Shown: positions 45,955 through 50,868 of the stretch, piece by piece
Numbering within the stretch: the stretch's first letter is position 1
Layout: each line of letters begins with the position of its first letter
Assembly (NCBI GenBank): GCA_944325065.1
Contig: CALUYS010000012.1
Location: 1-53,826, forward strand
DNA length: 53,826 nucleotides
Reading direction: 5' to 3'
Origin: Candidatus Gastranaerophilales bacterium
GTDB lineage: Bacteria > Cyanobacteriota > Vampirovibrionia > Gastranaerophilales > Gastranaerophilaceae
The notes under the pieces: generated by a model
Databases searched by the model: none
What the model was told of the DNA's origin: nothing
The model's input: only the letters and a program-made list of their open reading frames with translations
Position numbers and translations under genes: made by a program

Positions 45955-47904
45955 TTAACCTTGGTTTGTATATGAACTCATTCTTTGCAGTGCTTCAATT
46001 TTCTGTTGTTGTTTTTGATATTCGATTTGTTTTTTCTTTTCATCAGCTTCATCTAACATTTGAACAAGTAAAGATAGATCTTTATTTATAGCTTCTTGTA
46101 GCTGTGGACTTTGTTGAATAACTTCTCTTAATTCAGGATGTTGAGATAATCTTCCTGCAAGTTCTTTAACAATAATCTGATTTTCTTGGATTCTTTCTTG
46201 TCTTTCCATTATGGCATCTCTTTTAGCAATTTCCGTTTTATCTTTTGGTTTACCAAATAATTTATGAGGGATATATTCAAGAACTTTTGTCTTCTTATCA
46301 TCAATTACAAAAGTACCAATAATGCCTCTGCCAAGACCACCTACTAAGCCTGGAAGTGAATATGTGAATAATTTTTTAATACTACCCAAAAATCCTTGTT
46401 CGACAGGCTTAACATTTCCACGTCCCCAATGACATATATGACCAAGCCATTTAGCAGGGTAATGATACCATTTTAAAGCACCCTTTTCAATCTTTTTCAA
46501 TTCTTTTAAATTTTTATGAGCTTCTGCAAGTGTTGCACCACCAACTTTCCATTTCCCATTTTGAATAGCTTTGCTTGATATCGCATTCGCATTTGGGCCT
46601 TTAAAAATAGTATTATTTATATAATTAGTCTGATCTTGAAGAGCTTGAAATTGTGCTGATGACATTCCAATACCACGAAGTGATGCAAATTTATTTATAA
46701 CATTTATTGAAAAGCCTAAAGTCATTAATGAGCCTATTTCACGGAAAACACTTTCAGCAAGAACTTTACCACGATCTTCTTTGTCAGCAGTTGCTGTTTC
46801 TTCAATTACATTACTTAGAAAATATGCCTGAAGTGCCATTGAACCAAACCATCCCGCTGTATTATTCATTATTGCTTCAGTTGCGTATAATCCTGTTTTT
46901 GCAAGACCTTTGCCTAATTTAGATTTCGCAATATTGTCACGTCCTTGAATTACATCTAATTTATGAAGAGCTGTATCAAAATTACATTTACGACCGGTTA
47001 TTGTTTGTATAACTGTATTCCATAAACAAGATATTTTTTGAGGTAATGTCCTAGCTTTTTTTAAATTTTCAAGTCCACCTTTGCCATAATTCATTGAACC
47101 ATAACACCATTTACCTTTCAAATGTTGTGAATCATATATTTCTCGTATAACTTTTTCAAAATCATCTCGAGCTCCTGAAGCAGAATTGACAGCTTTTGAA
47201 GTTAAATCTTCTAAACTTAAATACTTATCACCACATACCTTTCTAAGACAATTTTCAAGGGCTTCCATTGTAATAGAATTTGCTTTATCTTTTTTGTAAA
47301 AAACACGACCATCACTTTTTCCACCTAAAGGATTTCTAAAAAATACATCAGCAAGTTCATTTATATATTGAGTTGATACCCCTCCTTCCATACTTTTTGC
47401 CAATGAGAAAGTAGCATGACTTTCTTTACCTGGGTCAATAAAGCAGCTAAAAAATGTATTATTTTTCGCCCATTTTCTTATATTAGCTTTCATATTAGAA
47501 TAGCCTGTTGAAATATTATCAGTTAAGTTTTTAAACCATTTAAATCTTTTACCTAATCCATCTATTCCGTTTTTAAAACCATCTGAAATGTTATCGCCGA
47601 TTGATCCAAGAAAGCTTAAATATGTTTTCTTACCATCTCCACTTCTTGCAAGATGATATTCAATGCCTTTACCTGATAACCATAAAAGTCCAAAAGTTCC
47701 TATGCCAATTGCCCACTTAAAAGCAGGTTTTTTAAATAAATTTTTTATACGTTTTGTATTTTCATAGTCTTCAACTTTTTCGACACTTTTTTGTTTCATT
47801 TGATTTAATTTTTGTTCTCGTTCATATCGTTTTGTGTCAGAAGTGTTATCATAGAAACTTGTAAAATTTTGATTTGTGTTTAATCCTGTATAATTAACCG
47901 ACAT
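45955..47904 (-). CDS. Large tagged membrane protein, unknown function
   Basis: A 649-residue protein that is not recognised. The start is M-S-V-N-Y-T-G-L-N-T-N-Q-N-F-T-S-F, resembling the N-terminal tag of the 33.7-36.3 kb proteins. A membrane segment lies near 62-80 (K-W-A-I-G-I-G-T-F-G-L-L-W-L), with further hydrophobic stretches near 350-400 and near 520-540. The C-terminal 90 residues are a charged coiled coil. The start lacks a strong ribosome binding site. It is divergent from the prepilin gene across a 180-base gap. Confidence 0.65.
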   Translation of the reverse strand: MSVNYTGLNTNQNFTSFYDNTSDTKRYEREQKLNQMKQKSVEKVEDYENTKRIKNLFKKPAFKWAIGIGTFGLLWLSGKGIEYHLARSGDGKKTYLSFLGSIGDNISDGFKNGIDGLGKRFKWFKNLTDNISTGYSNMKANIRKWAKNNTFFSCFIDPGKESHATFSLAKSMEGGVSTQYINELADVFFRNPLGGKSDGRVFYKKDKANSITMEALENCLRKVCGDKYLSLEDLTSKAVNSASGARDDFEKVIREIYDSQHLKGKWCYGSMNYGKGGLENLKKARTLPQKISCLWNTVIQTITGRKCNFDTALHKLDVIQGRDNIAKSKLGKGLAKTGLYATEAIMNNTAGWFGSMALQAYFLSNVIEETATADKEDRGKVLAESVFREIGSLMTLGFSINVINKFASLRGIGMSSAQFQALQDQTNYINNTIFKGPNANAISSKAIQNGKWKVGGATLAEAHKNLKELKKIEKGALKWYHYPAKWLGHICHWGRGNVKPVEQGFLGSIKKLFTYSLPGLVGGLGRGIIGTFVIDDKKTKVLEYIPHKLFGKPKDKTEIAKRDAIMERQERIQENQIIVKELAGRLSQHPELREVIQQSPQLQEAINKDLSLLVQMLDEADEKKKQIEYQKQQQKIEALQRMSSYTNQG

Positions 47905-48037: not shown

Positions 48038-48084
48038 TTCTAACAAATAATTAGAAAAAAAGGAGTTTAAAAAAATGTTGAATA

Positions 48085-50229
48085 ATGTGCAAATCCTCGA
48101 GGGGGGGGGGTAAAAGTGCTTTAAATAAAGGGAGATTAGGTTTCACCTTTGTCGAAGTAATTCTTGTTATGGCTATATTAAGCTTTTTATATATTGTTAC
48201 TACAAAAGTTATTCAACACAATCTTGAAAAAAAAGTGCCAACTTATGTCTATTATCTATACAAAAATTTGGAAAATCAAAATAAGTGGTTATTAGAAAAA
48301 ATTAAAAAAGATAATCCTGATAAGAATGCTGAAGATGTTATAGCTTCTATGGATGCAAAAAGTTATTGCGAAACGTTTGCAAAAGATATAAATACAAGAG
48401 GTAAAAATAATTGTGCTATGTTAGATGATGCAGGTGATCAAGAAATTGTCTATAATTGTAATCGGACATTTAATCATGTTGTAAATTCTGATGGTTCTTT
48501 TTCGGCAACATATAACCCTACATTAAAAGAAAATGAATCGATTAGTGATTATAATTATTGTGATGAAATTAAAAATCTAAACAATTTTACTTGTAGATAT
48601 AAACCTAAAAAAGTATTTAATGAATTAGCAATACCAAATACTGATGAACAATTATATAATTGTACAACTTCGAGTGTTGAAAATATTGAAATCGATAATC
48701 GTAATCCATTAAATATAAAAACTCATTTTAAGTCGACAAACAATATTTATTTTAATATTTTAAAATTTAAAGCACATAAATATAATTTTACTTTAAATGC
48801 TACGCAAGGTGACATATGTAAAGCAAACTTTGCAAATGGAGGATCAGGTTGGGATAATCTTAAAGATAAGATTATTATTTATGACGCTACAAGTTCATCT
48901 GAAGTAAAAGGCTACCATATTTCATATTGTAAGGATGCAATGAATTTATGGAATGATCCAACTAATGAAAATTATAATTTTTCAAATAAAACAAATATAT
49001 CATGTTGTGGTACAACAAAAAATAAAAGTAAGTTATATTTAGGACTACTAACACCTCCAATAAATGGAAAATCAATTATAACATTGCCGAATGGGAGAAG
49101 TTATACAAAAACAAGTAGTACTACAAAAGATTATAAGGTTCAAAACTCTTCAAAGCGTATGACCTTTTATTGGTTTTACTATCGTCCAAGTAATGGTAGA
49201 AATACTGCTATAGTTGATGAAGCTCACCATTCATATCAACCACAAAAGTCAAGTGGGACTTCATGGACATATTATAGAAAAAAAAGTGAGTATAGAAATT
49301 TAGCAAGTGCTCTTGCTTCTGCTCCACTAAATTTAACGTCAGATTCACCACTAAAAGTTTATGCGAATGCCGCTTTTGCATATAACTATTCACCGCTAAC
49401 GTCTAAGCGCATTGATGTTGCGAATGTTGCTTATAGAAGATTTAGATATTATTATCAATTTGGTAATATGAGTGATTATTTAAATTCTCCTTGTCAAACG
49501 TATTTGAATTTTTTAAAGAAAGCTATTGATTATAAAGTATGGGAAAATAAAACTTTTGAAACAAATCCCCAAGTTGTTTCCTCAACATTTGAAAACGTTG
49601 ATACCTTTAAATTTCAAAATTCTATAATATTTAAAGCCAATAATGATACTGCACTTAAAAATAGTCTTGTTAATCAATATAATAAATGGACAAATTATTT
49701 TAAACAATCAGGTCAAAAAGTTGAAGCAAAAAAAGCTTTATCAAATAAAATATATAATGAAAATGATTCATTTAATTATGAAAAAAACAATCACATTATC
49801 TATGTATCAATTGATACTCCATTTGAAAAAGGCGAAATGAACAAAAACATTTTTGCTTTCGAGCAATTTGAGGACAGAATTATTCCTGTTGGATATTTAG
49901 CAAACAATTCAAATACACCCTTAAAATTTGATGTAATAACCCGTAATCCTAAAACATTTAAAATAGAAAAAGTTAATTATTATGAAGGTATGGAAAAAAG
50001 GCCACTAACCTTTTGTGAAGCAATGAGTTATACAGGAGAGGAATTTTCACCATATTGTGGATGTCGATGGCCCTCATCTGGAGTCTTAGTAACTGGTCCC
50101 AATGGAAAAGGAAATCCTACTTATTATAGAGAAAATGGTGATGGATACCCCCAAAAAATAAAACTTTGTGATAATAATTTTGGTTGTATAATTCGTCCTG
50201 TTAAACCTAGTTCGGGTGGTTGGTTTTAA
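48085..50229 (+). CDS. Large type IV prepilin-like surface protein with a G10 tract at its start
   Basis: A 714-residue protein with a class III signal: basic leader ending G-R-L-G, then F-T-F-V-E-V-I-L-V-M-A-I, with Glu at +5 after the expected cleavage at G19/F20. The rest is a large, Cys-rich, Tyr- and Asn-rich exported region, unlike the 130-200 residue major pilins, and may act as a tip or adhesin pilin. The best-placed start is the ATG at 48075, nine bases after AGGAG, but the run of ten G (48101-48110) puts it out of frame and it stops at 48111. The ATG at 48085 is in frame but lies 19 bases from AGGAG. Confidence 0.8.
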   Translation: MCKSSRGGGKSALNKGRLGFTFVEVILVMAILSFLYIVTTKVIQHNLEKKVPTYVYYLYKNLENQNKWLLEKIKKDNPDKNAEDVIASMDAKSYCETFAKDINTRGKNNCAMLDDAGDQEIVYNCNRTFNHVVNSDGSFSATYNPTLKENESISDYNYCDEIKNLNNFTCRYKPKKVFNELAIPNTDEQLYNCTTSSVENIEIDNRNPLNIKTHFKSTNNIYFNILKFKAHKYNFTLNATQGDICKANFANGGSGWDNLKDKIIIYDATSSSEVKGYHISYCKDAMNLWNDPTNENYNFSNKTNISCCGTTKNKSKLYLGLLTPPINGKSIITLPNGRSYTKTSSTTKDYKVQNSSKRMTFYWFYYRPSNGRNTAIVDEAHHSYQPQKSSGTSWTYYRKKSEYRNLASALASAPLNLTSDSPLKVYANAAFAYNYSPLTSKRIDVANVAYRRFRYYYQFGNMSDYLNSPCQTYLNFLKKAIDYKVWENKTFETNPQVVSSTFENVDTFKFQNSIIFKANNDTALKNSLVNQYNKWTNYFKQSGQKVEAKKALSNKIYNENDSFNYEKNNHIIYVSIDTPFEKGEMNKNIFAFEQFEDRIIPVGYLANNSNTPLKFDVITRNPKTFKIEKVNYYEGMEKRPLTFCEAMSYTGEEFSPYCGCRWPSSGVLVTGPNGKGNPTYYRENGDGYPQKIKLCDNNFGCIIRPVKPSSGGWF
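48101..48110 (+). repeat. Poly-G tract (ten G) near the prepilin start codon
   Basis: Ten consecutive G lie 26 bases after the ATG at 48075. In so AT-rich a genome a run of this kind is extraordinary. With nine or twelve G the ATG at 48075 is in frame with the prepilin signal; with ten it meets a TAA straight after the tract. This is the pattern of a contingency (phase-variable) locus. Confidence 0.85.
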
Positions 50230-50307: not shown

Positions 50308-50868
50308 TTAATCTAAATAGAATACAGTAACAACTTTATGACTTTCTTCAGCGTGTTCAATAGCTTTATGAAGTGTAGAAGAAGTGTGAGAAAGGAAACA
50401 TATAAGCTGTTGACAATCATCAATAATTTCACGATTACATATGCGAGAAGCATCCGCTAAAGTCATCATAGCTCTATCAGCGTGTTCTATTATATTTGGG
50501 ACGCCAATAAGTTGATCTTGAACATCAGAAGGTTGTTGCCCGATTGTTTGAGGCAAAATAACTTTTAAACGACTTGGATTTGATTTCATAGCACCACGAA
50601 TAACAGCAGCATTAGTACCACTTGAACCTCCTGAAGTAATAATTGAATTACCCTGACGAATTAACGCTGTGGCAAGCATTTCAATAATTTGTTGATGAGT
50701 TATAGTTAAATTACGACTACCTATTATAGCAATTTTTTTAGCTTGTTGTTGAATAGTTGCTAACTCAAAAGCAAGTTCATCAAAAGTATTGGCATCTTCT
50801 TGTGAAACTGTATCCAAATCACTTATTGGTACCATAATTGAAGGTTTATTTTCTTTCTCATCAGCCAT
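50308..50868 (-). CDS. SLOG/DprA-like Rossmann-fold protein
   Basis: A 186-residue protein with a DprA-like fold: K-I-A-I-I-G-S-R-N-L-T near residue 44, then L-I-R-Q-G-N-S-I-I-T-S-G-G-S-S-G-T-N near 70-87, the nucleotide- or DNA-binding turn of the SLOG/LOG superfamily. It has no DprA C-terminal winged helix, so it is shorter than true DprA. Stand-alone homologues are common in cyanobacteria and are annotated as recombination mediator-like, but the function is not settled. It stands alone, convergent with the prepilin gene. Confidence 0.8.
   Translation of the reverse strand: MADEKENKPSIMVPISDLDTVSQEDANTFDELAFELATIQQQAKKIAIIGSRNLTITHQQIIEMLATALIRQGNSIITSGGSSGTNAAVIRGAMKSNPSRLKVILPQTIGQQPSDVQDQLIGVPNIIEHADRAMMTLADASRICNREIIDDCQQLICFLSHTSSTLHKAIEHAEESHKVVTVFYLD

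Follow-up and report, generated by a model that had tools for sequence, protein, structure and literature searches.

A homopolymeric G tract in prepilin leaders as the probable basis of ON/OFF phase variation in Candidatus Gastranaerophilales

Repeat-driven phase variation is known chiefly from pathogens, e.g., Neisseria, Campylobacter and Helicobacter. In the Neisseria genes pilC1 and pilC2, a G/C run of 9–20 nt within the reading frame gives ON/OFF expression, and at least 9 nt has served as the threshold for poly-G/C phase variation in this genus (PMC5953494). The opa genes of Neisseria carry CTCTT repeats in the region coding for the leader peptide (PMC3960869), and some of the pilS alleles contain homopolymeric C tracts that may cause ON/OFF variation, simple repeats of any kind being present in 23 of 607 alleles (PMC5953494). 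Type IV pilin of Moraxella bovis is phase-variable by means of site-specific DNA inversion (PMC11868660). Cyanobacteria are absent from a 2025 review of phase variation, and in the open-access literature, to which the search was confined, we found no paper on phase variation in Gastranaerophilales and a single one on their prepilins, which merely lists pil genes in a termite-gut genome.

Here we describe a large pilin-like gene in a window of 54 kb, that is, the whole stretch of DNA that was analyzed (53,826 nt), from a Candidatus Gastranaerophilales genome of 1.86 Mb (37 contigs, 98% complete). The relevant features are as follows.

45955–47904, minus strand: divergent upstream gene, 649 aa, assigned to no family, used as a synteny marker
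48061–48065, plus strand: ribosome binding site AGGAG, read from the sequence, nine bases from the ATG at 48075
48075–48077, plus strand: main start ATG, which reads MLNNVQILEGGG and terminates at ten G
48085–48087, plus strand: second ATG, in the prepilin frame at ten G, 19 bases past AGGAG
48101–48110, plus strand: candidate contingency tract of ten G, ON from ATG 48075 at 9 or 12 G
48111–48113, plus strand: TAA, which closes the frame of ATG 48075 at ten G
48111–48141, plus strand: remaining part of the prepilin leader, (G)KSALNKGRLG, its last residue being the glycine of the predicted cleavage site
48142–50229, plus strand: mature part of the large pilin-like protein, 695 aa plus stop
50308–50868, minus strand: downstream DprA-like (Rossmann) gene, used as a synteny marker

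The original prediction had placed the ribosome binding site nine bases before ATG 48075 and the ten G immediately before an in-frame TAA, and both proved exact; it was also right that loss of one G or gain of two joins ATG 48075 to the prepilin signal, and that the second ATG shares the prepilin frame at ten G with poor spacing from AGGAG. At ten G, the codons for G-F-T-F-V-E, which start at 48139, are in frame with ATG 48085; from ATG 48075 this frame is reached at 9 or 12 G, with the product MLNNVQILE-Gly(n)-KSALNKGRLG-FTFVEV, and is cut off by the stop at 10.

We consider slipped-strand ON/OFF phase variation of prepilins to be the best explanation of this arrangement, and very probably the correct one. 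During replication, the G run would gain or lose bases by slippage. At 9 or 12 G, ribosomes from ATG 48075 would go on to read the prepilin and produce the protein (ON), whereas 10 or 11 G would bring them to a stop at or shortly past the tract (OFF). Since prepilin peptidase is predicted to cut downstream of the tract (at G-F), the glycines encoded by the tract would be removed, and one and the same mature protein would result from every ON length. We infer changes of tract length within the population here, export of the product as an adhesin of the pilus type, and an adaptive value of the switching in the gut.

The pilin-like protein itself has the prepilin motif G/A-F-T-x-x-E followed by a hydrophobic helix (GFTFVEVILVMAILSFLYIV), and matches TIGR02532 with 17.2 bits, above the cut-off of 16.3; the match to PF07963 is weak (18.5 bits, below the cut-off of 21.2). 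In the alignment of paralogues, the N-terminal helix and the Cys-containing C-terminal part of the mature protein are conserved and the middle is variable. The structure predicted for the 695-aa mature protein from a five-sequence input has a mean pLDDT of 33 and is too poor to use, and a likeness to 14-3-3 proteins in a profile search of solved structures was discarded, the matches being at chance level. The length of 714 residues given initially holds when counted from ATG 48085; from ATG 48075 at nine G the product has approximately 717 aa.

The ten-G tract is not a chance occurrence, because it is the only G/C run of at least 7 nt in the window, whose GC content is 27.6%, and because long runs are in excess throughout the genome: 7 runs of at least 9 nt and 5 of at least 10 nt are present in 1.86 Mb, with approximately 0.3 and 0.05, respectively, expected from the composition of the window. 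Three of the seven runs of at least 9 nt occupy the equivalent position of paralogous prepilin genes.

G/C runs are also found in other contexts, both in this genome (G000) and in a sister species of the same genus (G001). One of them is G10, in frame, approximately 22 codons past the start of a gene of 382 aa with no assigned function (L034:2082-3230, G000:C18:12081-13229), and its counterpart in the sister species (L113) has G9, out of frame by hand reading; this looks like a second type of phase-variable gene. A run of eleven C (L035, G000:C1:55885-55895) is located close to the 3′ terminus of a radical-SAM-like gene belonging to a locus of the surface-polysaccharide type, where slippage would alter the C-terminus of the protein. 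In the sister species, many runs of 9–13 nt lie inside short palindromic repeats (GGGGGGAGGCTTTGCCTCCCCCC; L094-L115), which are apparently non-coding and situated near a conserved CCGCCGTAGGAAAGACG, and G12 is present close to the 3′ terminus of a methyltransferase-like gene adjacent to a radical-SAM gene (L208:85-906, G001:C3), another possible phase-variable surface-glycan gene.

The genome contains six large prepilin paralogues, with 31–49% identity to the window protein; the two ends are conserved, and the middle varies strongly. The leader design GGAG-TTTAAAA-ATG/GTG is common to four of the six, the window gene (contig C12) among them, and is repeated in the copies of the sister species; a start equivalent to ATG 48075, either ATG or GTG, is present in every tract-bearing paralogue, and relatives retain the leader part (G)KSALNKGRLG in the form (K)S(A/T)LN(K/Q)G. 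Similar tracts in paralogous prepilin genes, for which a search had been suggested in the original prediction, were found: pure tracts occupy the leader position in three of the six paralogues, and an interrupted one, in one more. The window gene, with G10, is OFF from the main start; the paralogue C1:147.5k has G13 at C1:147528-147540 and is ON; the paralogue C1:133k has a run of nine C at C1:133044-133052 after GTG and is OFF, being ON at eight or eleven C; and the paralogue C1:278k (L029, upstream of 278024) has the interrupted GGAGGGGG and is OFF. The paralogues on contigs C8 and C16 have ordinary short leaders without a tract, and the same holds for the corresponding genes of the sister species.

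The open reading frame of 695 codons in the OFF window gene is open. Comparison of this gene with the OFF gene C1:278k yields dN/dS of 0.22 for the first 60 codons and 0.13 for the C-terminal part, and comparison with the syntenic orthologue in the sister species, 0.13 over 56 codons. Because dN/dS is 0.13–0.22, these OFF prepilin copies, by this measure, are working genes and not decaying ones. The paralogue C1:278k is locked out of frame, yet its ORF of 668 codons is intact and under purifying selection.

The syntenic orthologue (G001:C37) also has ten G and is OFF, because it would be ON at 8 or 11. The synteny is seen from both flanks: the upstream 649-aa gene has a 75% identical orthologue adjoining the G10 copy, and the DprA-like gene, 94% identical, adjoins a C-terminal piece of the pilin gene on another contig. 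The presence of ten G in both the window gene and the orthologue counts against a change of length, although the ON length of the orthologous leader differs. Other prepilin copies of the sister species have G11 (OFF), a run of twelve C (ON) and G11AGGGG (ON), and one copy, in which the tract has been lost, is ON, so that the length and type of the tract differ among homologous copies both within the genome and in the sister species.

The original prediction had proposed a switch between strong and weak expression with two different leaders, low from ATG 48085 at ten G and high from ATG 48075 at 9 or 12 G. ATG 48085 is indeed open and in frame at ten G, but it has no Shine–Dalgarno sequence at a usable distance, being 19 bases from AGGAG, and no such second ATG is present in the paralogues, the syntenic orthologue or the other copies of the sister species. 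Moreover, any in-frame start ahead of the tract is found in just 17 of the 63 OFF loci of the family-wide survey (see below), and the mature protein would be identical from either leader. Since the second ATG is unconserved and badly spaced, in-frame starts are rare, and the mature protein is the same, we regard ON/OFF switching as more likely; the strong/weak variant seems unlikely, and ATG 48085 is probably incidental.

One observation counts against a prepilin switch: neither a family search nor the sister-species protein as a query revealed an A24 prepilin peptidase in the assembly, which is 98% complete. As the peptidase is present in the sister species and in the four other genomes of the family that we checked, a gap in the assembly is a likely, though unproven, reason.

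The search for the combination of tract and prepilin motif (at least 8 G, then 10–40 bases, then the codons for F-T-x-x-E, with the reversed pattern as a control) identified it in 42 of 155 genomes of the family Gastranaerophilaceae, representing 16 of 41 genera, with zero matches of the reversed pattern in the same 155 genomes. In a sample of the class, the pattern is present in 27 of 117 genomes, every one of them from Gastranaerophilaceae, and in none of the 79 genomes outside the family; the control gave three matches, all in a single genome (G229), which had 130 matches of the pattern itself. Many genomes of the family have dozens of pattern counts, where those on the plus strand include overlapping windows and those on the minus strand, judging from the loci read, correspond to one per locus, and some have more than 20 loci. 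Matches on one strand alone number 21 in G097, 23 in G143 and 45 in G229, and 28 distinct places are seen in G022 among the matches listed.

The reading frames of these loci follow a common scheme. Between the tract and the motif, a stop codon occurs in the motif frame in none of the 76 loci, compared to 58 and 57 loci in the other two frames. In all 75 loci with a ribosome binding site and a start before the tract, a change of no more than one G suffices for an open leader: 12 are ON at their assembled length, 39 need the loss of one G, and 24, the gain of one. The lengths of the tract across the fetched loci are 8–14, and those of 9–14 agree with the Neisseria threshold of at least 9 nt (PMC5953494). 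Together with the paralogues and the syntenic orthologue, the many loci of the family lend strong support to the idea, already voiced in the original prediction, of a contingency tract governing the prepilin frame.

The share of ON loci, 12 of 75, is below one third with a nominal binomial P of 0.0006; independence of the loci does not hold, and an ON copy whose tract is shorter than 8 G would escape the search pattern. Unbiased switching would not produce such a share, and it counts against switching of this kind. The bias toward OFF could be caused by selection, by the limit of eight G in the search or by assembly error.

The same counts bear on two further explanations. Transcriptional slippage or ribosomal frameshifting would yield a fixed fraction of the product at any genomic length, making switching at the DNA level unnecessary. 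RNA polymerase slippage on homopolymers occurs in other bacteria, and such a mechanism would account for 63 of 75 copies being out of frame as assembled and for these copies staying intact and under purifying selection. However, both OFF phases are present, even within one genome (in G145, nine loci need the loss of one G, three, the gain of one, and one is ON), which speaks against a programmed frameshift of fixed direction, a reading that we rejected, and C runs replace G runs in some copies. Two-way transcriptional slippage is compatible with both OFF phases; overall, we find slippage or frameshifting quite improbable.

Assembly or sequencing errors, with real lengths in frame and genes always ON, are the other explanation, and short-read assembly does have difficulty with long G runs, a relative (G097) having NN gaps within the tracts. 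Still, errors would create neither the runs themselves nor the differences between the paralogues (G10, G13 and C9), and the run is found at the equivalent place in many independent genomes. As the out-of-frame copies within one genome need both the loss and the gain of one G, we reject a pure artefact and assign to errors in general a very low probability.

Returning to slipped-strand phase variation as the preferred explanation, a broader model may be suggested for the family. One sampled prepilin from another genus has a C-terminal Lcl_C-like domain (E 8e-6, short of the Pfam cut-off), suggesting adhesion, and the window protein may also function as an adhesin. Gastranaerophilaceae may possess a large combinatorial prepilin phasome, with more than 20 prepilin genes in some genomes, some of them with a lectin-like (Lcl_C) C-terminus. 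Each gene would have its own G-run switch in the leader, which is removed from the product. As the run would usually have an out-of-frame length, most copies would be silent, and any one cell would carry on its surface only a small selection of pilin-type adhesins, which would change. The case for this model, taken as a whole, seems to us evenly balanced.

If phase variation is confirmed, switching by repeats would be a regular feature of this multicopy prepilin family, whose hosts are uncultured relatives of cyanobacteria that do not photosynthesize and inhabit animal guts, and would provide a genetic handle on the surface variation of such gut commensals. It is also a warning that annotation and proteomics will overlook these prepilin genes, because most of them are out of frame in the assembly.

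Of the described systems, Neisseria pilC1/pilC2 is similar in the nature of the tract, since an in-frame G/C run of comparable length resides in a type IV pilus gene; however, PilC is a pilus tip/retraction protein and not a prepilin, the phylum is different, and one or two pilC copies are switched per genome, compared to many prepilins here. The opa genes are similar in that a repeat in the leader shifts the frame and leaves the mature protein unchanged, and in that members of a multicopy surface family are switched singly, but their repeat is a pentamer in the Sec signal peptide of an outer-membrane protein, in contrast to a mononucleotide run in a class III prepilin leader. The pilS alleles share a homopolymer within pilin-type sequence, but they are silent donor cassettes with tracts in a minority of alleles, whereas here the tract of the leader is conserved and the genes are standalone. 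Moraxella bovis also shows phase variation of a pilin, by inversion instead of slippage. The present case would differ in the target of the switch, which is the prepilins themselves and many copies of them, and in its setting in a commensal gut lineage.
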